Of a stretch of DNA of 64,000 nucleotides, positions 11,868-18,447 are shown one piece after another (within the stretch, counting starts at the first letter, position 1; each line of letters starts with the position of its first letter). The DNA is from Corallococcus sp. AS-1-6. GTDB taxonomy: Bacteria > Myxococcota > Myxococcia > Myxococcales > Myxococcaceae. The stretch lies in the NCBI RefSeq assembly GCF_020037015.1, contig NZ_JAIQDE010000011.1, forward strand, positions 186,001-250,000, written 5' to 3'. The position numbers and the translations under genes were made by a program. Below the pieces are notes generated by a model that ran no database searches, was not told the origin of the DNA, and worked only from the letters and a program-made list of their open reading frames with translations.

Positions 11868-13157
11868 TCAGCGCGCCACGGCGACGGAGGACTCCGCGGG
11901 CGGGAGCGCCTCCGGCGCGGGGGGCTCGTCCTCCTGCGGCTGGGCGGCGTCCTCCGGCAGGAACGTCAGCAGCACCAGCGCGGGGATGGCCGCCGCGGCG
12001 GTGAAGGCGAAGAAGGTGGGCCAGCCCATCCACGTGGCCAGGTAGCCGGACACGGAGCCGATGAGCCGGTTGGCGATGGTGCCCAGCGCGGACAGGAGCG
12101 CGTACTGCGTGGCGCTGAAGCTCTTGTGGCACAGCGACATCACGAAGGCCGCGAACGCGGTGACGCCCAGGCCCGTGCACACGTTGTCCACGGCGATGGT
12201 GCACGCGAGCATCAGGTCGTTCTTGCCCACCATCGCCAGGGCCATGAAGGCCAGGTTGGTGAGCCCCTGCGCGGCGCCGAAGATGAACAGCGCGCGGCGC
12301 ATGCTGAGCTTCACCATCAGCACGCCGCCCAGGAGGCCTCCGCCAATGGTGGCCACCATGCCCAGCGTCTTGCTGAGCGTGCCAATCTCCGTGTTGGAGA
12401 AACCCAGCTCGATGTAGAAGGGCGTCACCATGCTGGCGGCGATGGCGTCCCCCAGCTTGTAGAGCACCAGGAACGCCAGCACCCCCAGCGCGTACTTGCG
12501 GCGGAAGTAGTCCACGAAGGGCCGCACCACCGCGTCCCCCAGGTTGCGCGGAGGCCGCACGCTCTGGGGCTCCGGGGCCACCAGCGTGGCCACCACGCCC
12601 ACGCCCATGAGCAGGCCCATCACGTAGTACGTCCGCGACCAGCCCAGGTGGTCCGACAGGATGAACGCGAGCCCGCCCGCCACGAGCATGCCCAGCCGGT
12701 AGCCGGTGACGTACAGCGAGTTGCCCAGCCCGCGCTCCTCCATGGGGAGGATGTCCGTGCGCCACGCGTCCGCGACGATGTCCTGGCTGGCGGACAGGAA
12801 CGTCACCACCACCGCCATGCACGCCATGGCCAGCGGGGCGTCCTTCGGGTTCACCAGGCCCATGGCGGAGATGGCGCCCATGAGCAGCACCTGCGTGAGC
12901 AGCATCCAGCCGCGCCGCCGGCCCAGGAAGGGCAGGGTGTAGCGGTCCATCAGCGGCGCCCACAGCACCTTGAAGGTGTAGGGCAGCGCCACCAGGCTGA
13001 AGATGCCAATCGTCTTGAGATTGACCCCCTCGTTCTTCATCCACGCGGACAGCGTGACGCCGGTCAGCCACAGGGGGAGGCCGGACGCGAAGCCGACGGC
13101 CATCAGGAGCCAGACGCGCCGGCTCTTCAAGACGGTGAGAAGCGAGGAGTTGGGCAT
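11868..13157 (-). CDS. ampG: AmpG-type muropeptide permease (MFS)
   Basis: This 429-residue inner-membrane transporter has about 12 hydrophobic helices. It matches the AmpG family closely at its N-terminus (GFASGLPLWLTGVTLSAWM, LKTIGIFSLVALPYTFK, WAPLMDRYTLPFLGRRRGW, SASQDIVADAWRTDILP, ERGLGNSLYVTGYRLGM). AmpG imports GlcNAc-1,6-anhydroMurNAc peptides for peptidoglycan recycling and feeds beta-lactamase induction in other bacteria. The start at 13157 (MPNSSLL) was chosen because the known family begins there, although no clear ribosome site precedes it. An in-frame GTG at 13208 is the alternative. The C-terminus ends in a short Pro/Glu-rich cytoplasmic tail. Confidence 0.93.
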   Translation of the reverse strand: MPNSSLLTVLKSRRVWLLMAVGFASGLPLWLTGVTLSAWMKNEGVNLKTIGIFSLVALPYTFKVLWAPLMDRYTLPFLGRRRGWMLLTQVLLMGAISAMGLVNPKDAPLAMACMAVVVTFLSASQDIVADAWRTDILPMEERGLGNSLYVTGYRLGMLVAGGLAFILSDHLGWSRTYYVMGLLMGVGVVATLVAPEPQSVRPPRNLGDAVVRPFVDYFRRKYALGVLAFLVLYKLGDAIAASMVTPFYIELGFSNTEIGTLSKTLGMVATIGGGLLGGVLMVKLSMRRALFIFGAAQGLTNLAFMALAMVGKNDLMLACTIAVDNVCTGLGVTAFAAFVMSLCHKSFSATQYALLSALGTIANRLIGSVSGYLATWMGWPTFFAFTAAAAIPALVLLTFLPEDAAQPQEDEPPAPEALPPAESSVAVAR

Positions 13158-13229
13158 GGGGGCGCGGGGAAACAGCCGCCAGCATAGAGAATCCACCCCG
13201 CGCGTCACCTTCCACGGCCTGGAGAATGT

Positions 13230-13269: not shown

Positions 13270-14235
13270 TCAGGGTTGAGGGTCCAGCGCGGACACGTCC
13301 GGGCAGGTGCGGCGGTCGCCCTCGGTGGGGGTGATGAAGTCCCAGTTGCGCTGCATGAAGGTGATGCGCGTCCGGGTGTCCCAGCACTCCGTGTACTGCG
13401 CGCCCTTCGCGTCCCCGTCCAGGATGTTGAGCACCAGCACGCCCCGGCCGTCCGGCGTCCAGCGCGCCACGATGTCCAGCGTCTCCAGCAGCCCGCCGGG
13501 AACCAGGTCCTCCCCCGGCAGCCGGAAGGACATCTCCCCCAACCCCTCCGGCGTCCGGCGCGACGCGTAGCGCGCCAGCGGCAGCGCGCCCCCCAGGCTG
13601 GAGACGAGCAGCTCCACGCTCGAGGGCAGCACCTTCGTCTGGTAGCGGATGTCCAGCCGCTCCACCAGGTTCGCGTCCTGCGGCTCGAACCCGCGCGCGC
13701 GGGCCTCCTTGAGGTCCATGGCGAGCGAGCCCTCTCCCTTGCGGATGCCGCCGTCCGCCTTGAAGGTGCCGGGCACGTAGGTCCACCACGCGGCCTCGCC
13801 GCCGCCCGTGGGCCGGACCTGGAGGAGGTAGCCGAAGTCGCTGCCCTGGCGCTCCATCACGAAGCGCAGCTCGTGGCCCGGGTGTCCGTCCGCGGGGAAG
13901 GGACCCCAGACGCGCCTGTCCGGCTCCCGCGTGGTGGGGGGGACGTGGCGGAACACCTCCAGCAGGGCGAGCAGGCCGTCCACGTCGGTGTTGAACTGCG
14001 TGCCCGCCGCGTAGGCCTGGAGGGCGAGCTCCGACGGCCCGCCCAGCACCTGCGCCCGGCTCAAGGCCTGGCCCCGCGTGCGCACGCCCTGGCTGGAGCG
14101 GGCGCTGTCCGGCAGCTTCGCGGCCAGGTCCTCGCGCTGGGGCAGGGCGTTCTGGAACTCCAGGTCGTCGTTGGAGAAGTCGCCGCCGCACGCGACCGCG
14201 AGGAGGCAGCAGAGGGTCAGGGCAGGGGTTCGCAT
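13270..14235 (-). CDS. Lipoprotein B of the sigma/caspase operon, paralogue of the 17,330-18,325 protein
   Basis: This 321-residue lipoprotein has the signal MRTPALTLCCLLAVAC, with the lipid-modified Cys at about residue 16. It is clearly related to the first gene of the same operon. Both share an early F-x-[DN]-x-L-P, a PPTT-x-E-x-D block followed by VWGP, an RY strand, a RWT-x-x-G-x-GR segment, and a C-terminal ECWD near a Thr/Tyr-Phe strand. An ATG at 14250 overlaps the caspase stop as ATGA, and GAGGGAG between it and ATG 14235 points to initiation at 14235; either start gives the same mature protein. No catalytic motif is seen. As the last gene it probably serves the same envelope function as its paralogue. 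Confidence 0.85.
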   Translation of the reverse strand: MRTPALTLCCLLAVACGGDFSNDDLEFQNALPQREDLAAKLPDSARSSQGVRTRGQALSRAQVLGGPSELALQAYAAGTQFNTDVDGLLALLEVFRHVPPTTREPDRRVWGPFPADGHPGHELRFVMERQGSDFGYLLQVRPTGGGEAAWWTYVPGTFKADGGIRKGEGSLAMDLKEARARGFEPQDANLVERLDIRYQTKVLPSSVELLVSSLGGALPLARYASRRTPEGLGEMSFRLPGEDLVPGGLLETLDIVARWTPDGRGVLVLNILDGDAKGAQYTECWDTRTRITFMQRNWDFITPTEGDRRTCPDVSALDPQP

Positions 14236-14246
14236 CACGTGCTCCC

Positions 14247-15977
14247 TCATGGCTCGTACGTGAGGAGCGCGGCCAGCTCCCAGAACCCCAGGGAGCGCTG
14301 CGCGTCGACGGTGTATTGGAGGTACTGCAGGCGGCTGCGCGCGGTGAGGTTCAACCGGCGCGTGAGCCGGAAGCGCGCGCCCGTCGCCAGGCCCGGTGAC
14401 ACCATGGCGAAGCGTTGATCCGGGAACGCCGCGTCATCGAACTTGCGGCCCATGACGAGGTACGCGACGCGCACGCCCACGAAGGGGGAGAAGCGCCCCA
14501 CGGGCCACTCGGCGGTGAGGCTGGTGCCCACGTTCACCACCGAGTAGCGGTACGCCGGGCCCGCCAGCGTGGGCAGGGACAGCACGCCCTCCGTGCCGCC
14601 CACCGCCGCGTCGAAGCCCCAGACCCAGTCGCGGCGGAAGTAGTCGTGCAGCTCGGCCTCCGCGCCGAAGAGGGGCACGGAGAGGAAGAGGGACTGGCGC
14701 GTCTGGGGGTCGAAGAAGGACTGGAAGCCGCCGGTGAGGCCGAACGTCCACCACGCGCCCCTGTCCAGCATCGCCCCCTTCACGGGGTCGTCGGAGAAGG
14801 GCGCGTCCTTGAAGCGCGGCTCCTGCAGGATGGTCGTGCGTCCGCGCGCGACCTCGACCTCGCCGATGCGCAGCCGGTCGCTGAGCCGGCGCTTCACGCG
14901 GTAGGTGCCGGGGGCCAGGGCCACGCGGCGCTCCGCGTCCGAGGCCTTGTCCAGCTCCGCCACCACCAGGCCGCCCGGATCCACGAAGTAGTAGGAGCCC
15001 GCGGGGGCGCTGCCGGGGACCACCAGGCCTTCGGCGCTCGCGCGCAGGTCGGTGAGCACCAGGTCGCCGTTGCCCGCCAGGTCGTAGCTGAACGTCGGAT
15101 GCTGCGGGCCCGCGCTGCTGTCCGCCGTGTCCGCGACGGTGCGGGCGTAGGCGTGCGAATACGCCTCGAAGAGCGTCACGCGTCCGTCGCCGCTGCGGTC
15201 CGCGTCTCCCAGCAGGCCGCTGGCCAGGTGATGGGAGAAGTAGCTGCCGCCCAGCGCATCCGACTCCTGCGAGTCCTCGTCCGCAGCGCTGGAGGTGAGG
15301 ATGACGACGCCCCGGGCATCGCGGGCCGCGCCGGACTCCACGTCGAAGGCCGGGGCCTTGCGCGCGCCCTTGGTGCGGGTGAGCGCACCGGAGCGGCAGG
15401 AGTCGAGGATGGCGATGCGGATGTCCACGGGCGCGTCCGCCAGCCGGCGCTTGAGCGCGTCGAAGGCGAGCCGTGAGGCCCCCATCCGCAGCGCGCCGTC
15501 CTTCGCGTGGCCGGAGTAGTAGACGAACAGCGCGGTGCGCTCGCCGCGAGCCTGGGCCTCGCGGGCCCGTTGCTCCAGCTCCGACAGCGCGACGAGGAAG
15601 TCCTTCGCGTCGTCGTCCAGGAGGAGCTTCGCGTCGGCCGGGGACACACCGCCCAGCCGCGTGAGCAGGTCGTGCATCTTGCGCGCATCGTCGCGCGCGT
15701 AGCTCAAGGGGCGCGTGTCCGCGCCGCCCGTGTCATTGCCCGCGATGAGCGCGAAGCGGTGCAGCGTGTCCGCGTGAGCGGCGGTGGAGAGCAGCATCAG
15801 CGCGGGAATCGCCGCGCCCCACGAACGTCCTCGCCCACCCGCGCGGGCAGGCCCTGCGCTCGCCGGCGAGGTGCTCCACGGCGTACGCCACGCCTCCTGT
15901 CCGAGGATGCGCGTGAACGTGGCCCGTGCCCAGGCCGCCCCTTGAGCAAGCACCTGTCTCACGGGGCCGTCGCTCAT
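14247..15977 (-). CDS. Exported caspase-like (C14) protease fused to an outer-membrane-type beta-barrel
   Basis: This 576-residue protein has a signal-like segment at 52-69 (GAAIPALMLLSTAAHA) preceded by about 50 residues. A caspase/metacaspase fold follows at about 70-310, with catalytic His157 in YYSGHAKDG and Cys194 in LDSCRSGA. It contains an EF-hand-like loop at 260-271 (D-x-S-x-D-G-x-V-x-x-x-E). Residues 325-388 resemble a PEGA-type beta domain (LAPGTYRVKRR), and 408-576 form alternating amphipathic strands ending in ALLTYEP, like an outer-membrane barrel. The start at 15977 overlaps the anti-sigma stop as ATGA, and the stop overlaps a possible start of the next gene. The protease domain would face the periplasm if the barrel inserts. 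Substrate is unknown. Confidence 0.88.
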   Translation of the reverse strand: MSDGPVRQVLAQGAAWARATFTRILGQEAWRTPWSTSPASAGPARAGGRGRSWGAAIPALMLLSTAAHADTLHRFALIAGNDTGGADTRPLSYARDDARKMHDLLTRLGGVSPADAKLLLDDDAKDFLVALSELEQRAREAQARGERTALFVYYSGHAKDGALRMGASRLAFDALKRRLADAPVDIRIAILDSCRSGALTRTKGARKAPAFDVESGAARDARGVVILTSSAADEDSQESDALGGSYFSHHLASGLLGDADRSGDGRVTLFEAYSHAYARTVADTADSSAGPQHPTFSYDLAGNGDLVLTDLRASAEGLVVPGSAPAGSYYFVDPGGLVVAELDKASDAERRVALAPGTYRVKRRLSDRLRIGEVEVARGRTTILQEPRFKDAPFSDDPVKGAMLDRGAWWTFGLTGGFQSFFDPQTRQSLFLSVPLFGAEAELHDYFRRDWVWGFDAAVGGTEGVLSLPTLAGPAYRYSVVNVGTSLTAEWPVGRFSPFVGVRVAYLVMGRKFDDAAFPDQRFAMVSPGLATGARFRLTRRLNLTARSRLQYLQYTVDAQRSLGFWELAALLTYEP

Positions 15978-16762
15978 GGCTTCAGCAGGATCCACTGCGT
16001 CTGCGCCCCCGCCACGTCCAGCGGGGCCATGCGCGTGACGTCCCGGCCCGCCGCGTCGAAGGCCTTCCGGGCCGCGTCGCTCAGCGCCTCCATGGACAGG
16101 GGCGCGTCCGTCAGCACCAGCACCACGCGCTCCGCCCCCGCGCCGGTGAACTCCACGCTCTCCGGCAGCCAGTGCTGCCCCGCGCCCGGCTCCACCGCGA
16201 GGCTGTCCCCGGACTCCGGATACAGCGGCGTCACCTCGCCCCGCGCGTCCACCGACAGCGCCGCCACGTAGCGGTACGCGTCCGCCGTGTAGCCCAGGCG
16301 CACGCGCTCACCGGGTCGCAGCGCCTCCGGCGACTCCGTGCTCGCCACCCGCTGCGGCTCCACGCCTCCACCGATTCGCAGCTCCGCGCCCGCGCCGCCC
16401 TTGATGCGATTGCCCGCGACGGGCGGTGGGACTGGCTCCGTCCTCCCTCCGGTCTCCAGCAGCGGACGCGCCAGCACCAGCACCAGCACGGAGGCCGCCA
16501 CCGCCATCAGCGGCCGGACCCACTGCGCGCGCGTCGCGGGCGCTCTCGATGCCTGCCGCGCGCGGGCCCGCTCCACGCCGGCCTCGAAGCCCTCGAAGGG
16601 CACCTCCGCCTCGAACGTGGCCTGCGCGTCCGCGAAGGACCTCAGCGCCGCGCCGCACGCCTCGCACGTCTCCGCGTGCTCGCGGACGCGGTTCGCTTCC
16701 GGGGGGGGCAGCTCACCGGCGTGCAGGCGGCGCAATGTCCAGCTCGACTCGTGCGCGCTCAT
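15974..16762 (-). CDS. Zinc-finger anti-sigma factor with DUF4384-like periplasmic domain
   Basis: This 262-residue membrane protein has an N-terminal anti-sigma zinc-finger motif, H29-x3-C33-x2-C36 (HAETCEAC), one membrane helix at about 82-100 (WVRPLMAVAASVLVLVLARP) and a periplasmic domain of about 160 residues. The last 120 residues (PGERVRLGYTADAYRYVAAL, VTPLYPESGDS, ESVEFTGAGAERVVLVLTD) look like DUF4384, a domain often paired with caspase proteins. It should hold the ECF sigma factor encoded just upstream and sense an envelope signal. ATG 16762 overlaps the sigma stop as ATGA, and its own stop overlaps the caspase start, so the three genes are translationally coupled. Confidence 0.88.
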   Translation of the reverse strand: MSAHESSWTLRRLHAGELPPPEANRVREHAETCEACGAALRSFADAQATFEAEVPFEGFEAGVERARARQASRAPATRAQWVRPLMAVAASVLVLVLARPLLETGGRTEPVPPPVAGNRIKGGAGAELRIGGGVEPQRVASTESPEALRPGERVRLGYTADAYRYVAALSVDARGEVTPLYPESGDSLAVEPGAGQHWLPESVEFTGAGAERVVLVLTDAPLSMEALSDAARKAFDAAGRDVTRMAPLDVAGAQTQWILLKP

Positions 16763-17301
16763 CGGACGCTCAGCTCCTCTCCACCCAGCTTGGCGAACTG
16801 CTCCAGCCGCTTGCGCACCGTGGGCACCGAACGTCCCAGCACCGCGGCCACCTCTTCCAGGGTCATCCCATCCACGTGGTAGTGGATCGCCGCCGCCTGC
16901 GTCTCCGCGTCCACCCGGGCCAGCAGCTTTCGCACCAGGTCGCGCGTCTCCATCGCCTCCGAGCCGCCATGGCCCTCCGAGCGGGCCGCCTCGTCCCGCG
17001 CGAACCACCTCCGCCACGCCGCCCCTTCCGCGCGCAGTTGGTTGAGGCAGTGGTGCGTGGCGATCTTCATCAGCCACGTCAGCGGAGACGCCTCCGCCCG
17101 GAACGACTCCCCGTGCACGAGCGCGCGGGCGAAGACGTCATGCATCGCGTCCTCCGCCCGGCTCGCGTCCTTCAGCAGGTAGCGGCAGCGCTCACGCACG
17201 CTGCCGCCGTACTTCACATACAGCTCGCGCAGGACGGCCCGCCGGTCCTCGGTGGGACGGGGAGGCACCACCTTCAGGGCCAGCGGGGTCGGTCCGGTCA
17301 C
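16759..17301 (-). CDS. ECF-type RNA polymerase sigma factor
   Basis: This 180-residue sigma70-family protein has a region 2 at about 25-92 (RCRYLLKDASRAEDAMHDVF, PLTWLMKIATHHCLNQLR) and a region 4 helix-turn-helix at about 122-172 (YHVDGMTLEEVAAVLGRSVP, TVRKRLEQF). There is no region 1.1 or 3, as expected for ECF sigmas. The likely start is GTG 17301, 28 bp after the stop of the upstream lipoprotein gene; its ribosome site is weak. It is followed by its presumed anti-sigma with an ATGA overlap. Its targets are unknown but probably include its own operon. Confidence 0.92.
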   Translation of the reverse strand: MTGPTPLALKVVPPRPTEDRRAVLRELYVKYGGSVRERCRYLLKDASRAEDAMHDVFARALVHGESFRAEASPLTWLMKIATHHCLNQLRAEGAAWRRWFARDEAARSEGHGGSEAMETRDLVRKLLARVDAETQAAAIHYHVDGMTLEEVAAVLGRSVPTVRKRLEQFAKLGGEELSVR

Positions 17302-17329
17302 GCGCGGCGCAAGCCTACCGCGACACGGC

Positions 17330-18325
17330 TCACAGCGACGAGTACGCCGCCGCCGTGAACCCGCCGCAGGAGGTCCCTTCCTCCCCGTAGCCCTGGCGCG
17401 GGTCCAGGCTGACGCGGAAGTAGGTGCTGAGGAAGTGCGCGTCCCAGCACTCGTTCACCGTCGCCTCGCCCATCAGGTCGCCGCCCGACACCTTGACGTC
17501 CGAGCGCCCCGCCCCCGACGCCGTCCAGCGGCTCTTGATGCTCAGCTTCTCCTTCTTCAGGCGCGTCAGGTCTCCCAGGTCGATGTTCTTGTACGTCACG
17601 AAGTCGAAGTCGCCCCCCGCCGTGGGCGACGCCTGGAAGTGGTACTTCGCGTCCACGCGCTGGCCGGCGTCCTCCTCGTCACGCACCTGGTGGAAGTCCG
17701 CGTCCACCGTCACTTGCGACGTGGCGCTGGCGCGCGCGTAGCGGATGTCCGCCGTGCCCAGGTTGTCATCCGCGCCCGGCAGGGTGAACGCCGCGTCCCA
17801 GTCGATGAGCAGCTCTCCGGAGCCGAAGCCCCGCATGCGCTCTCCGTCCGCGTTCACCTCCACCGTCTGCGTGCCGGACAGCACCGCCCGGAACGCGCTG
17901 TCCTCCTCCGCCTTCGGCTTGCCCTCCAGCACCCAGGAGAACGACGCATCCCCCGACTTCGTCACCGTCAGGCGCCACGTCGTGAACTCCATCGGGCCCG
18001 TGCTCGGTCCCCACACGGCCTTGTCCGCTTCCAGCGTCGTCGGCGGGTACTTGGTGATCTGCTCGATGAGGTTCAGCACCCAGAGCGTGCCGCCGTTCAC
18101 CACCACCGTGGCCGCCACGGTGGCCTTGAAATAGTCAGCCGTCTGACCCTGGATGGCCGCCACGGACGGGCCCTCGGCCGTCAATCCCTGGCCGTTCTGC
18201 TTCGGCGCGTTCACCTCCATCATCTCCTTGGAGGGCAGGCCGTCCCGGAACGTCGCCTCGTCGGGCTGGCCCGCGTCGCAACCGGCGAACAACAGGGAGG
18301 CACACAGCAGGCTCTTGCGGAACAT
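17330..18325 (-). CDS. Lipoprotein A, first gene of the sigma/caspase operon
   Basis: This 331-residue protein has a lipoprotein signal (MFRKSLLCASLLFAGC, modified Cys16). The mature part is beta-rich with many short strands and no catalytic signature. It is paralogous to the last gene of the operon (13,270-14,235): both carry an early F-x-[DN]-x-LP, PPTT-x-E-x-D followed by VWGP, D-IRY, an SRWTASGAGR-like segment and a terminal ECWD-containing region. Two copies bracketing a sigma/anti-sigma/caspase set suggest that they are part of the sensory or effector envelope complex. The start at 18325 has AAAGGA upstream. A 186-bp divergent region with a perfect palindrome precedes it. Confidence 0.85.
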   Translation of the reverse strand: MFRKSLLCASLLFAGCDAGQPDEATFRDGLPSKEMMEVNAPKQNGQGLTAEGPSVAAIQGQTADYFKATVAATVVVNGGTLWVLNLIEQITKYPPTTLEADKAVWGPSTGPMEFTTWRLTVTKSGDASFSWVLEGKPKAEEDSAFRAVLSGTQTVEVNADGERMRGFGSGELLIDWDAAFTLPGADDNLGTADIRYARASATSQVTVDADFHQVRDEEDAGQRVDAKYHFQASPTAGGDFDFVTYKNIDLGDLTRLKKEKLSIKSRWTASGAGRSDVKVSGGDLMGEATVNECWDAHFLSTYFRVSLDPRQGYGEEGTSCGGFTAAAYSSL

Positions 18326-18447
18326 GGTCGGGGGTCCTTTCAGGGCCCGTCTCGTGCGGGCCGTGCGGCGGTGAACTCGCCCCTATGGACACAGGCCGGG
18401 CGAAAAACAGAAAAGGCGCTCGCTGGAGGCTGAAAAGGACAGTGAAA

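Follow-up and report, generated by a model that had tools for sequence, protein, structure and literature searches.

Passages of a 2012 survey report that four of the five metacaspases of Myxococcus xanthus DK 1622 are encoded in operons with sigma-70 factors, and that sigma-70-linked metacaspases also occur in Anaeromyxobacter, Haliangium, Sorangium, Ralstonia, and Fibrobacter (PMC3501461). The locus described in the present study is a five-gene operon in a 64,000-nucleotide stretch of Corallococcus sp. AS-1-6 (contig NZ_JAIQDE010000011.1, positions 186,001 to 250,000 of the forward strand; hereafter, the window), which encodes a lipoprotein (LipA), an extracytoplasmic function (ECF) sigma factor, an anti-sigma factor, a caspase-like protease, and a second lipoprotein (LipB). 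It resembles the surveyed operons in that a caspase homologue and a sigma factor are joined in one operon, an association that was already known because the survey reports it. The strain's own genome agrees with the survey, since most of its six Peptidase_C14 matches lie beside sigma/anti-sigma matches: in addition to that of the window, the caspases on contigs C20, C81, C22, and C65 have sigma and anti-sigma matches upstream (weak for C22 and C65), while no anti-sigma match at E<=0.01 was found on the contig of the sixth, C10. What is new here is the architecture and a mechanistic clue, a tetrapeptide, R-x-K-G, shared by the anti-sigma factor and the caspase. The word "anti-sigma" appears nowhere in the main text of the survey, and a barrel, a lipoprotein pair, and a shared motif are not described in the parts of that article considered here (PMC3501461). 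Our literature search yielded no description of the five-gene unit or of the motif match in titles, abstracts, or passages, the 2021 ECF classification paper being outside its coverage.

Other described systems also place proteases next to ECF sigma factors. In the Csx29-Csx30-CASP-sigma system of type III-E CRISPR (clustered regularly interspaced short palindromic repeats), a caspase-like protease cleaves the inhibitor of an ECF sigma factor; however, that protease is a cytoplasmic CHAT protein activated by target RNA according to the part of the article considered (PMC10028731), whereas the window is predicted to encode an exported Peptidase_C14 protein with a barrel and a membrane-bound anti-sigma factor. 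As for the TPR-CHAT protease of type III-E CASP, our protein matched only Peptidase_C14 and, weakly, C13 in Pfam and nothing in PADLOC, and by these tests the window operon is not a member of this system. In EACC2-caspase neighborhoods, a caspase domain is coupled to an ECF sigma factor and activation by autopeptidase activity was proposed, but these combine a constant EACC2 with variable C-terminal domains and a DUF1822 protein, and "anti-sigma" has no occurrence in the text considered (PMC8195603); against the profile of the EACC1-associated caspase, NF047832, our protein scored 63.2 bits, below the cut-off of 140. ECF54 sigma factors likewise have proteases, including CHAT, in their genetic context, but are proposed, in the passages considered, to act without an anti-sigma factor (PMC8999054). 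The DegS-RseA-sigmaE and RsiW-sigmaW systems share with our proposal a membrane anti-sigma factor whose inactivation begins with a periplasmic or extracytoplasmic cleavage (PMC10028731). They differ in that the candidate site-1 protease of the window is a caspase predicted to lie in the outer membrane. In those two systems, the site-1 protease is a PDZ serine protease or an enzyme of another type. A myxobacterial caspase homologue also reportedly acts on partner proteins in the CRISPR-triggered proteolytic cascade of a Haliangium type III-B system.

We tentatively propose that the window encodes a caspase-gated envelope switch, in which a caspase anchored in the outer membrane serves as the site-1 protease of the anti-sigma factor and positive feedback operates via one promoter; to this account as a whole we give slightly less than an even chance. 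The features on which it draws are listed below, where A2 denotes the alignment of 48 caspases and A4 that of 50 anti-sigma factors.

17330..18325, minus strand: LipA, lipoprotein; lipobox-like pattern present in 62 of the 67 named relatives; predicted local distance difference test (pLDDT) of the model 87.9, predicted template modelling score (pTM) 0.84
16759..17301, minus strand: ECF sigma factor, GTG start; Sigma70_r2 46.3 bits, Sigma70_r4_2 30.3 bits
15974..16762, minus strand: anti-sigma factor; HX3CX2C finger, one membrane helix, and DUF4384-like periplasmic domain (predicted)
16460..16510, minus strand: membrane helix of the anti-sigma factor, about residues 85-101; hydropathy window 2.26, exact ends set by eye
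16397..16408, minus strand: R119-I-K121-G122 of the anti-sigma factor, proposed cleavage site after K121; R, K, and G in 49, 50, and 49 of the 50 sequences of A4
14247..15977, minus strand: caspase-like protease, predicted to be exported and to have a C-terminal barrel; Peptidase_C14 45.1 bits (cut-off 21.4); AlphaFold2 model
15048..15770, minus strand: caspase domain, model residues 1-241; best VIA-align match MALT1 (4i1r), Z 19.7
15507..15509, minus strand: catalytic His157 of the caspase (H88 of A2), in 48 of 48
15396..15398, minus strand: catalytic Cys194 of the caspase (C125 of A2), in 48 of 48
15366..15377, minus strand: R201-T-K203-G204 of the caspase, in the post-Cys loop, proposed autoprocessing site; R, K, and G each in 48 of 48
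14256..14753, minus strand: eight-strand barrel of the caspase in the model, strands 340-505; Foldseek match OmpA (9fzc)
13270..14250, minus strand: LipB, the second lipoprotein, a relative of LipA; lipobox-like pattern present in 57 of the 65 named relatives
18387..18410, minus strand: promoter-like motif CTGTTTT-N12-TGTCC upstream of LipA; single match in the genome

An earlier note made from the letters of this DNA had described five tightly packed minus-strand genes with ATGA overlaps, an anti-sigma factor built of a zinc finger, one helix, and a DUF4384-like domain, an exported caspase-like protease with a predicted outer-membrane barrel, and two related lipoproteins, and this description was borne out. 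The five genes lie end to end between 13270 and 18325, are transcribed in the order LipA, sigma factor, anti-sigma factor, caspase, LipB, and overlap by the four bases ATGA at three junctions (16762-16759, 15977-15974, and 14250-14247). Among named relatives, an overlap of ATGA, GTGA, or TTGA was found at 62 of 70 sigma/anti-sigma junctions and 66 of 76 anti-sigma/caspase junctions, at 28 of 66 between the caspase and LipB, and at 5 of 66 between LipA and the sigma factor. When 145 genomes of the order were searched, the anti-sigma factor was matched in 112, LipA in 113, and the caspase, at E<=1e-20, in 123, paralogues included. Scanning the contigs of named genomes yielded 79 loci, 56 of which had at least 2600 bases upstream and at least 1000 downstream of the caspase region; the full gene order was kept in 48 of these 56, three lacked LipA, and five differed otherwise. 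These last five are a locus whose caspase is split in two (L113), one that has just the caspase and LipB (L114), one with both lipoproteins downstream (L134), and two distant loci (L141 and L142).

The operon has also decayed in four genomes (G106, G116, G117, and G119), which belong to the genus group of Pyxidicoccus caerfyrddinensis: the match to LipA is limited to its first 53-66 residues, that to the sigma factor begins only at residue 90 or 109, caspase sequence is fragmented or undetected, LipB is at most a short remnant, and the anti-sigma frame is open. Because the order is kept in 48 of 56 loci and the genes other than that of the anti-sigma factor decay jointly in these genomes, the view that the five genes form one conserved unit, which the earlier note had put forward, is supported; a lack of the sigma factor or the caspase in most homologous operons, which that note had named as evidence to the contrary, was not what the search returned. 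In the four decayed copies (L049-L052), the start of LipA is fused in one open frame to the end of the sigma gene. The tetrapeptide of the anti-sigma factor has lost R in L049 and G in L052 and is intact in the other two; the idea that the motif decays after loss of the caspase was dropped, as four remnants are too few. In G118 (L053, 7190-9590), an insertion of approximately 2.4 kb in the caspase gene contains a 506-codon frame that looks transposase-like by eye, and the stretches fetched from G076 and G139 (L054 and L055) hold relatives of LipA but gave no match to the sigma factor, the anti-sigma factor, or the caspase. An operon with 78% caspase identity and myxobacterial neighbors was found in a record titled Comamonas sp. 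KCTC 72670 (L074), the label of which is probably wrong.

Regarding the individual proteins, regions 2 and 4 of the sigma factor both scored above the Pfam cut-off, and TIGR02937 (sigma70-ECF) was matched above its own cut-off. The anti-sigma factor matched zf-HC2 at 23.1 bits, barely above the cut-off of 22.2, and its finger residues H, C, and C are kept in 48, 49, and 49 of 50 sequences. Its DUF4384 match, which spans residues 148-200, reached 21.6 bits and is under the cut-off of 27; at E<=0.01, DUF4384 was matched by 28 (best 7.8e-6) and zf-HC2 by 25 of the 50 orthologues. Profile matches to ChrR, DdvA, and RsiW were weak (E 0.018 to 0.48). Fusions of DUF4384 to orthocaspases are on record in 23 cyanobacterial cases (PMC8283722).

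The caspase belongs to the caspase superfamily as judged by its Pfam profile match, its invariant His-Cys dyad, and its predicted fold. The AlphaFold2 model of the mature protein (507 residues; alignment of 48 sequences; mean pLDDT 81.8, pTM 0.63) contains a caspase fold, a domain of beta strands, and eight long strands. Model residues 1-241 fit MALT1 and caspases in VIA-align (4i1r, root-mean-square deviation 2.5, 187 aligned residues), and the best Foldseek match, OmpA 9fzc (E 3.1e-9, TMt 0.72), fits the eight C-terminal strands. In view of this combination of a caspase fold with an OmpA-like barrel, the protein is probably anchored in the outer membrane with its protease domain in the periplasm; the topology of an eight-strand barrel places an N-terminal domain on that side. 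By profile, the nearest solved relatives are type I metacaspases (7qp0, Metacaspase-1, E 5.9e-5), and the single sequence gave no match at E<=0.1. Metacaspases cleave after Arg or Lys (PMC3501461). The first approximately 50 residues from the ATGA start (15827-15977) are poorly conserved, most orthologues aligning from about residue 50. In the Corallococcus protein, these residues precede the signal peptide, whereas the signal peptide of L053 begins at the overlapping ATG.

The evidence that ties the two proteins together is the shared tetrapeptide. In the anti-sigma factor it lies approximately 20 residues past the membrane helix and ahead of the DUF4384 match, and K121 has the highest conservation of the 124 well-filled columns past residue 100. 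In the caspase, the K follows the catalytic Cys by nine residues, in a loop (model residues 126-152) that was modelled with pLDDT <50; the post-Cys loop is a frequent place of processing in caspase-type enzymes. Both motifs reappear in divergent modules across the phylum. When a motif model blind to the two scored positions was applied to 85 divergent anti-sigma factors, the first of these was K in 73 and R in 5, and the second was G in 77. Of the 18 zf-HC2 frames in the strain's own genome for which a helix is predicted, only that of the window carries R-x-K-G within the next 45 residues; one other (L149) has K-T-R-G in its place. Elsewhere in the operon, R-x-K-G or R-x-R-G was found in 18 of 63 LipB, 19 of 68 LipA, and 8 of 63 sigma rows.

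The gene order, the domains, the predicted folds, the invariant matching motifs, and a promoter-like motif occurring once in the genome were computed directly, and we infer from them the following course of events. The sigma factor would be bound and held at the inner membrane by the zinc-finger anti-sigma factor, the C-terminal domain of which would lie in the periplasm. After export, the caspase would be anchored to the outer membrane through its eight-strand barrel, so that the protease domain would face the same periplasm as the anti-sigma domain. A signal, perhaps the state of the outer membrane conveyed by the barrel or the two lipoproteins, may activate the caspase, and the active enzyme would cleave the tetrapeptide between K and G both in its own post-cysteine loop and in the linker of the anti-sigma factor. 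Additional proteolysis, presumably by a follow-on protease, would then release the sigma factor, which may transcribe the operon from its own promoter and thereby amplify the response. The earlier note had suggested that proteolysis or the lipoproteins modulate the anti-sigma factor; the shared motif and the predicted common compartment lend the first of these concrete, if indirect, support, while the modulation itself is still conjectural.

With respect to the last step, the promoter-like motif upstream of LipA is conserved in an alignment of upstream regions of relatives. CTGTTTT and TGTCC with a spacer of 10-14 occur once in the 9.5-Mb genome, while the backwards control gave zero matches; the motif was found in none of 100 shuffles of the window and in 24 of the 79 named loci. 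In L105, where LipA was not found, it stands directly upstream of the sigma gene. This sigma factor may use CTGTTTT-N12-TGTCC, and, if it does, the strict regulon may comprise little more than the sigma factor's own operon.

We then considered whether the residue before Gly agrees between the two proteins, scoring in each protein the first K-G or R-G (written anti-sigma/caspase). From 252 loci, 196 modules that had both a helix in the anti-sigma factor and a dyad in the caspase were retained, after leaving out 35 loci without an anti-sigma factor, 19 without a dyad-bearing caspase, and 2 without a helix; R-type modules had been deliberately sought in two of the searches behind these counts. 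The modules comprised 154 K/K, 24 R/R, 11 R/K, 2 K/R, and 5 others; clustering at 70% identity (n=97) left 74, 15, 3, 1, and 4, respectively, and at 50% identity (n=34) 15, 12, 3, 1, and 3. These calls include L183, L221, and L290, scored as discordant although R-x-K-G follows, and L282, L294, and L302, scored as concordant but doubtful. An earlier rule, which took the last K-G or R-G within 35 residues, was replaced because a second K-R-G inside the beta domain gave false R calls. A table of 76 pairs from a position weight matrix gave p 0.0046 with mis-set rows such as L282 included and p 5.7e-5 after correction by hand, values that overstate the case because related modules are not independent. 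A second group of caspases has an R-G loop, often C-x-[SA]-Y, and the linkers of their anti-sigma factors are also R-G (L319, L324, L326, L327, L331, L335, L343, L344, and L348); in L329, which falls in the same group, K-G and A-K-S stand in their place.

On a caspase tree built without the loop columns, there were approximately four changes of the caspase residue and eight of the anti-sigma residue, the residue calls being automated and some known to be wrong. Starting from the caspase, two independent pairs lie on supported branches (four on all branches), and the anti-sigma residue follows in 1.9 of the two on average. The agreement across the two sides is suggestive and not proof.

Several observations weigh against cleavage of the anti-sigma factor by the caspase, the chief doubts arising from the small number of independent changes and from the motif in modules without an adjacent caspase. 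When the tree is read from the anti-sigma factor, the caspase follows in two of six supported independent changes and shows no difference in four, and the agreement rests on so few events that a sign test cannot reach significance. A K-G anti-sigma factor faces an R-G caspase in L333, and M-G linkers are paired with R-G, R-G, and L-G in L294, L357, and L362, respectively. The anti-sigma factors of L296, L304/L317, L310, and L311 keep K-G, and the stretches fetched around them gave no caspase match; L323 and L341, which have short flanks, carry R-G or R-K-G, again with no caspase match. Conversely, the K-G-loop caspases of L187, L199, L205, and L220 have no anti-sigma factor found beside them, and the loop K-G is absent where the caspase loop reads CHSGxGKS, although the anti-sigma factors of such caspases often carry K-G. 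LipB also contains R-[K/R]-G, K or R preceding G in 44 of 63 sequences. Apart from these cases, L300 has neither K-G nor a caspase match in the fetched stretch, and in L222, L227, and L230 an anti-sigma match lies some 3 kb from the caspase. The K-G loop had been considered as a mark of sigma-linked caspases only, which failed on the caspases of L187, L199, L205, and L220.

Alternatively, R-x-K-G would be structural in both proteins, an element at the start of the DUF4384-like domain in one and of the caspase subfamily in the other, with the match coincidental and the substrates of the caspase elsewhere. This explanation, which we regard as unlikely but weighty, draws on the position of the motif directly ahead of the first strand in divergent modules, on its persistence in anti-sigma factors without an adjacent caspase, and on the K-G loops of caspases without an adjacent anti-sigma factor; moreover, both sides change rarely, and their agreement may therefore reflect shared history. 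However, the motif stays while its distance from the helix ranges from about 5 to 27 residues, the loop-length variants of the caspase (L203, L211, L213, and L219) retain K-G at a shifted place, and R is found on both sides in L142, L305, L319, and L048.

It is also conceivable, but to our minds distinctly unlikely, that the caspase is an output of the system, the sigma factor being freed by another protease and the caspase acting as a periplasmic executioner with two lipoprotein helpers, in destroying the envelope or in lysis during development. A trypsin-like protease acting upstream of both, and cutting R-x-K-G in the anti-sigma factor as well as in the caspase loop, would then explain the shared motif. 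For Myxococcus, metacaspases were put forward as candidates for autolytic enzymes (PMC3501461). All three of the caspase, LipA, and LipB lie in the sigma factor's own operon, and some K-G anti-sigma factors have no caspase next to them. However, the caspase has a conserved dyad of its own, its gene adjoins and mostly overlaps that of the anti-sigma factor, and the upstream protease is a postulate; we know of no trypsin-like enzyme of this sort here. That the linker is a pseudosubstrate keeping the caspase inactive, so that the anti-sigma factor couples restraint of the sigma factor and the protease, is very improbable, since, for all its inhibitor-like mimicry of the caspase's own loop, a flexible, exposed linker in which a basic residue precedes Gly would be a poor inhibitor design, and protease-cleaved anti-sigma factors such as RseA and RsiW are the established pattern (PMC10028731).

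The role of caspase homologues in multicellular bacteria is largely open, and those of myxobacteria have come under discussion as potential death enzymes (PMC3501461). Should the caspase prove to be the site-1 protease of its anti-sigma factor, myxobacterial caspases would be signaling proteases that link the outer membrane to transcription, caspase biology would be tied to envelope stress, function could be tested at a single residue (K121 in the anti-sigma factor), and modular, perhaps orthogonal, protease-gated sigma switches would come into view. Extending the proposal, it is possible, with the balance somewhat against it, that the majority of caspase homologues in myxobacteria act as dedicated site-1 proteases for ECF anti-sigma factors, each being periplasmic, fused to an outer-membrane barrel, and sharing a cleavage tetrapeptide between the activation loop and the cognate anti-sigma factor, with several separately wired switches per genome that K/K or R/R matching would help to insulate.

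Downstream of the operon, on the same strand (11868-13208), lies a membrane transporter gene that looks AmpG-like by eye. Its inclusion as a sixth gene was rejected because it accompanies 15 of 55 loci with enough flank, in near relatives only, some at 36-37% identity. A role in anti-phage defence was likewise rejected, PADLOC giving no match for any of the five proteins.

Judging from the gene order, the two lipoproteins are conserved parts of the operon. They are related to each other (26% identity, E 2e-17), and neither had a family match in the Pfam profile search. The model of LipA is confident, and its fold had no counterpart among solved structures in Foldseek at E<=0.001; the best VIA-align match, to porins, was weak (Z 8.5, root-mean-square deviation 7.3, 197 aligned), and porin, OspA, and JlpA were set aside as weak rows without weight. 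In LipB, residues 170-172 form R-[K/R]-G at a conserved place (R in 54, K or R before G in 44, and G in 62 of 63 sequences), which may represent a structural turn or a further substrate site.

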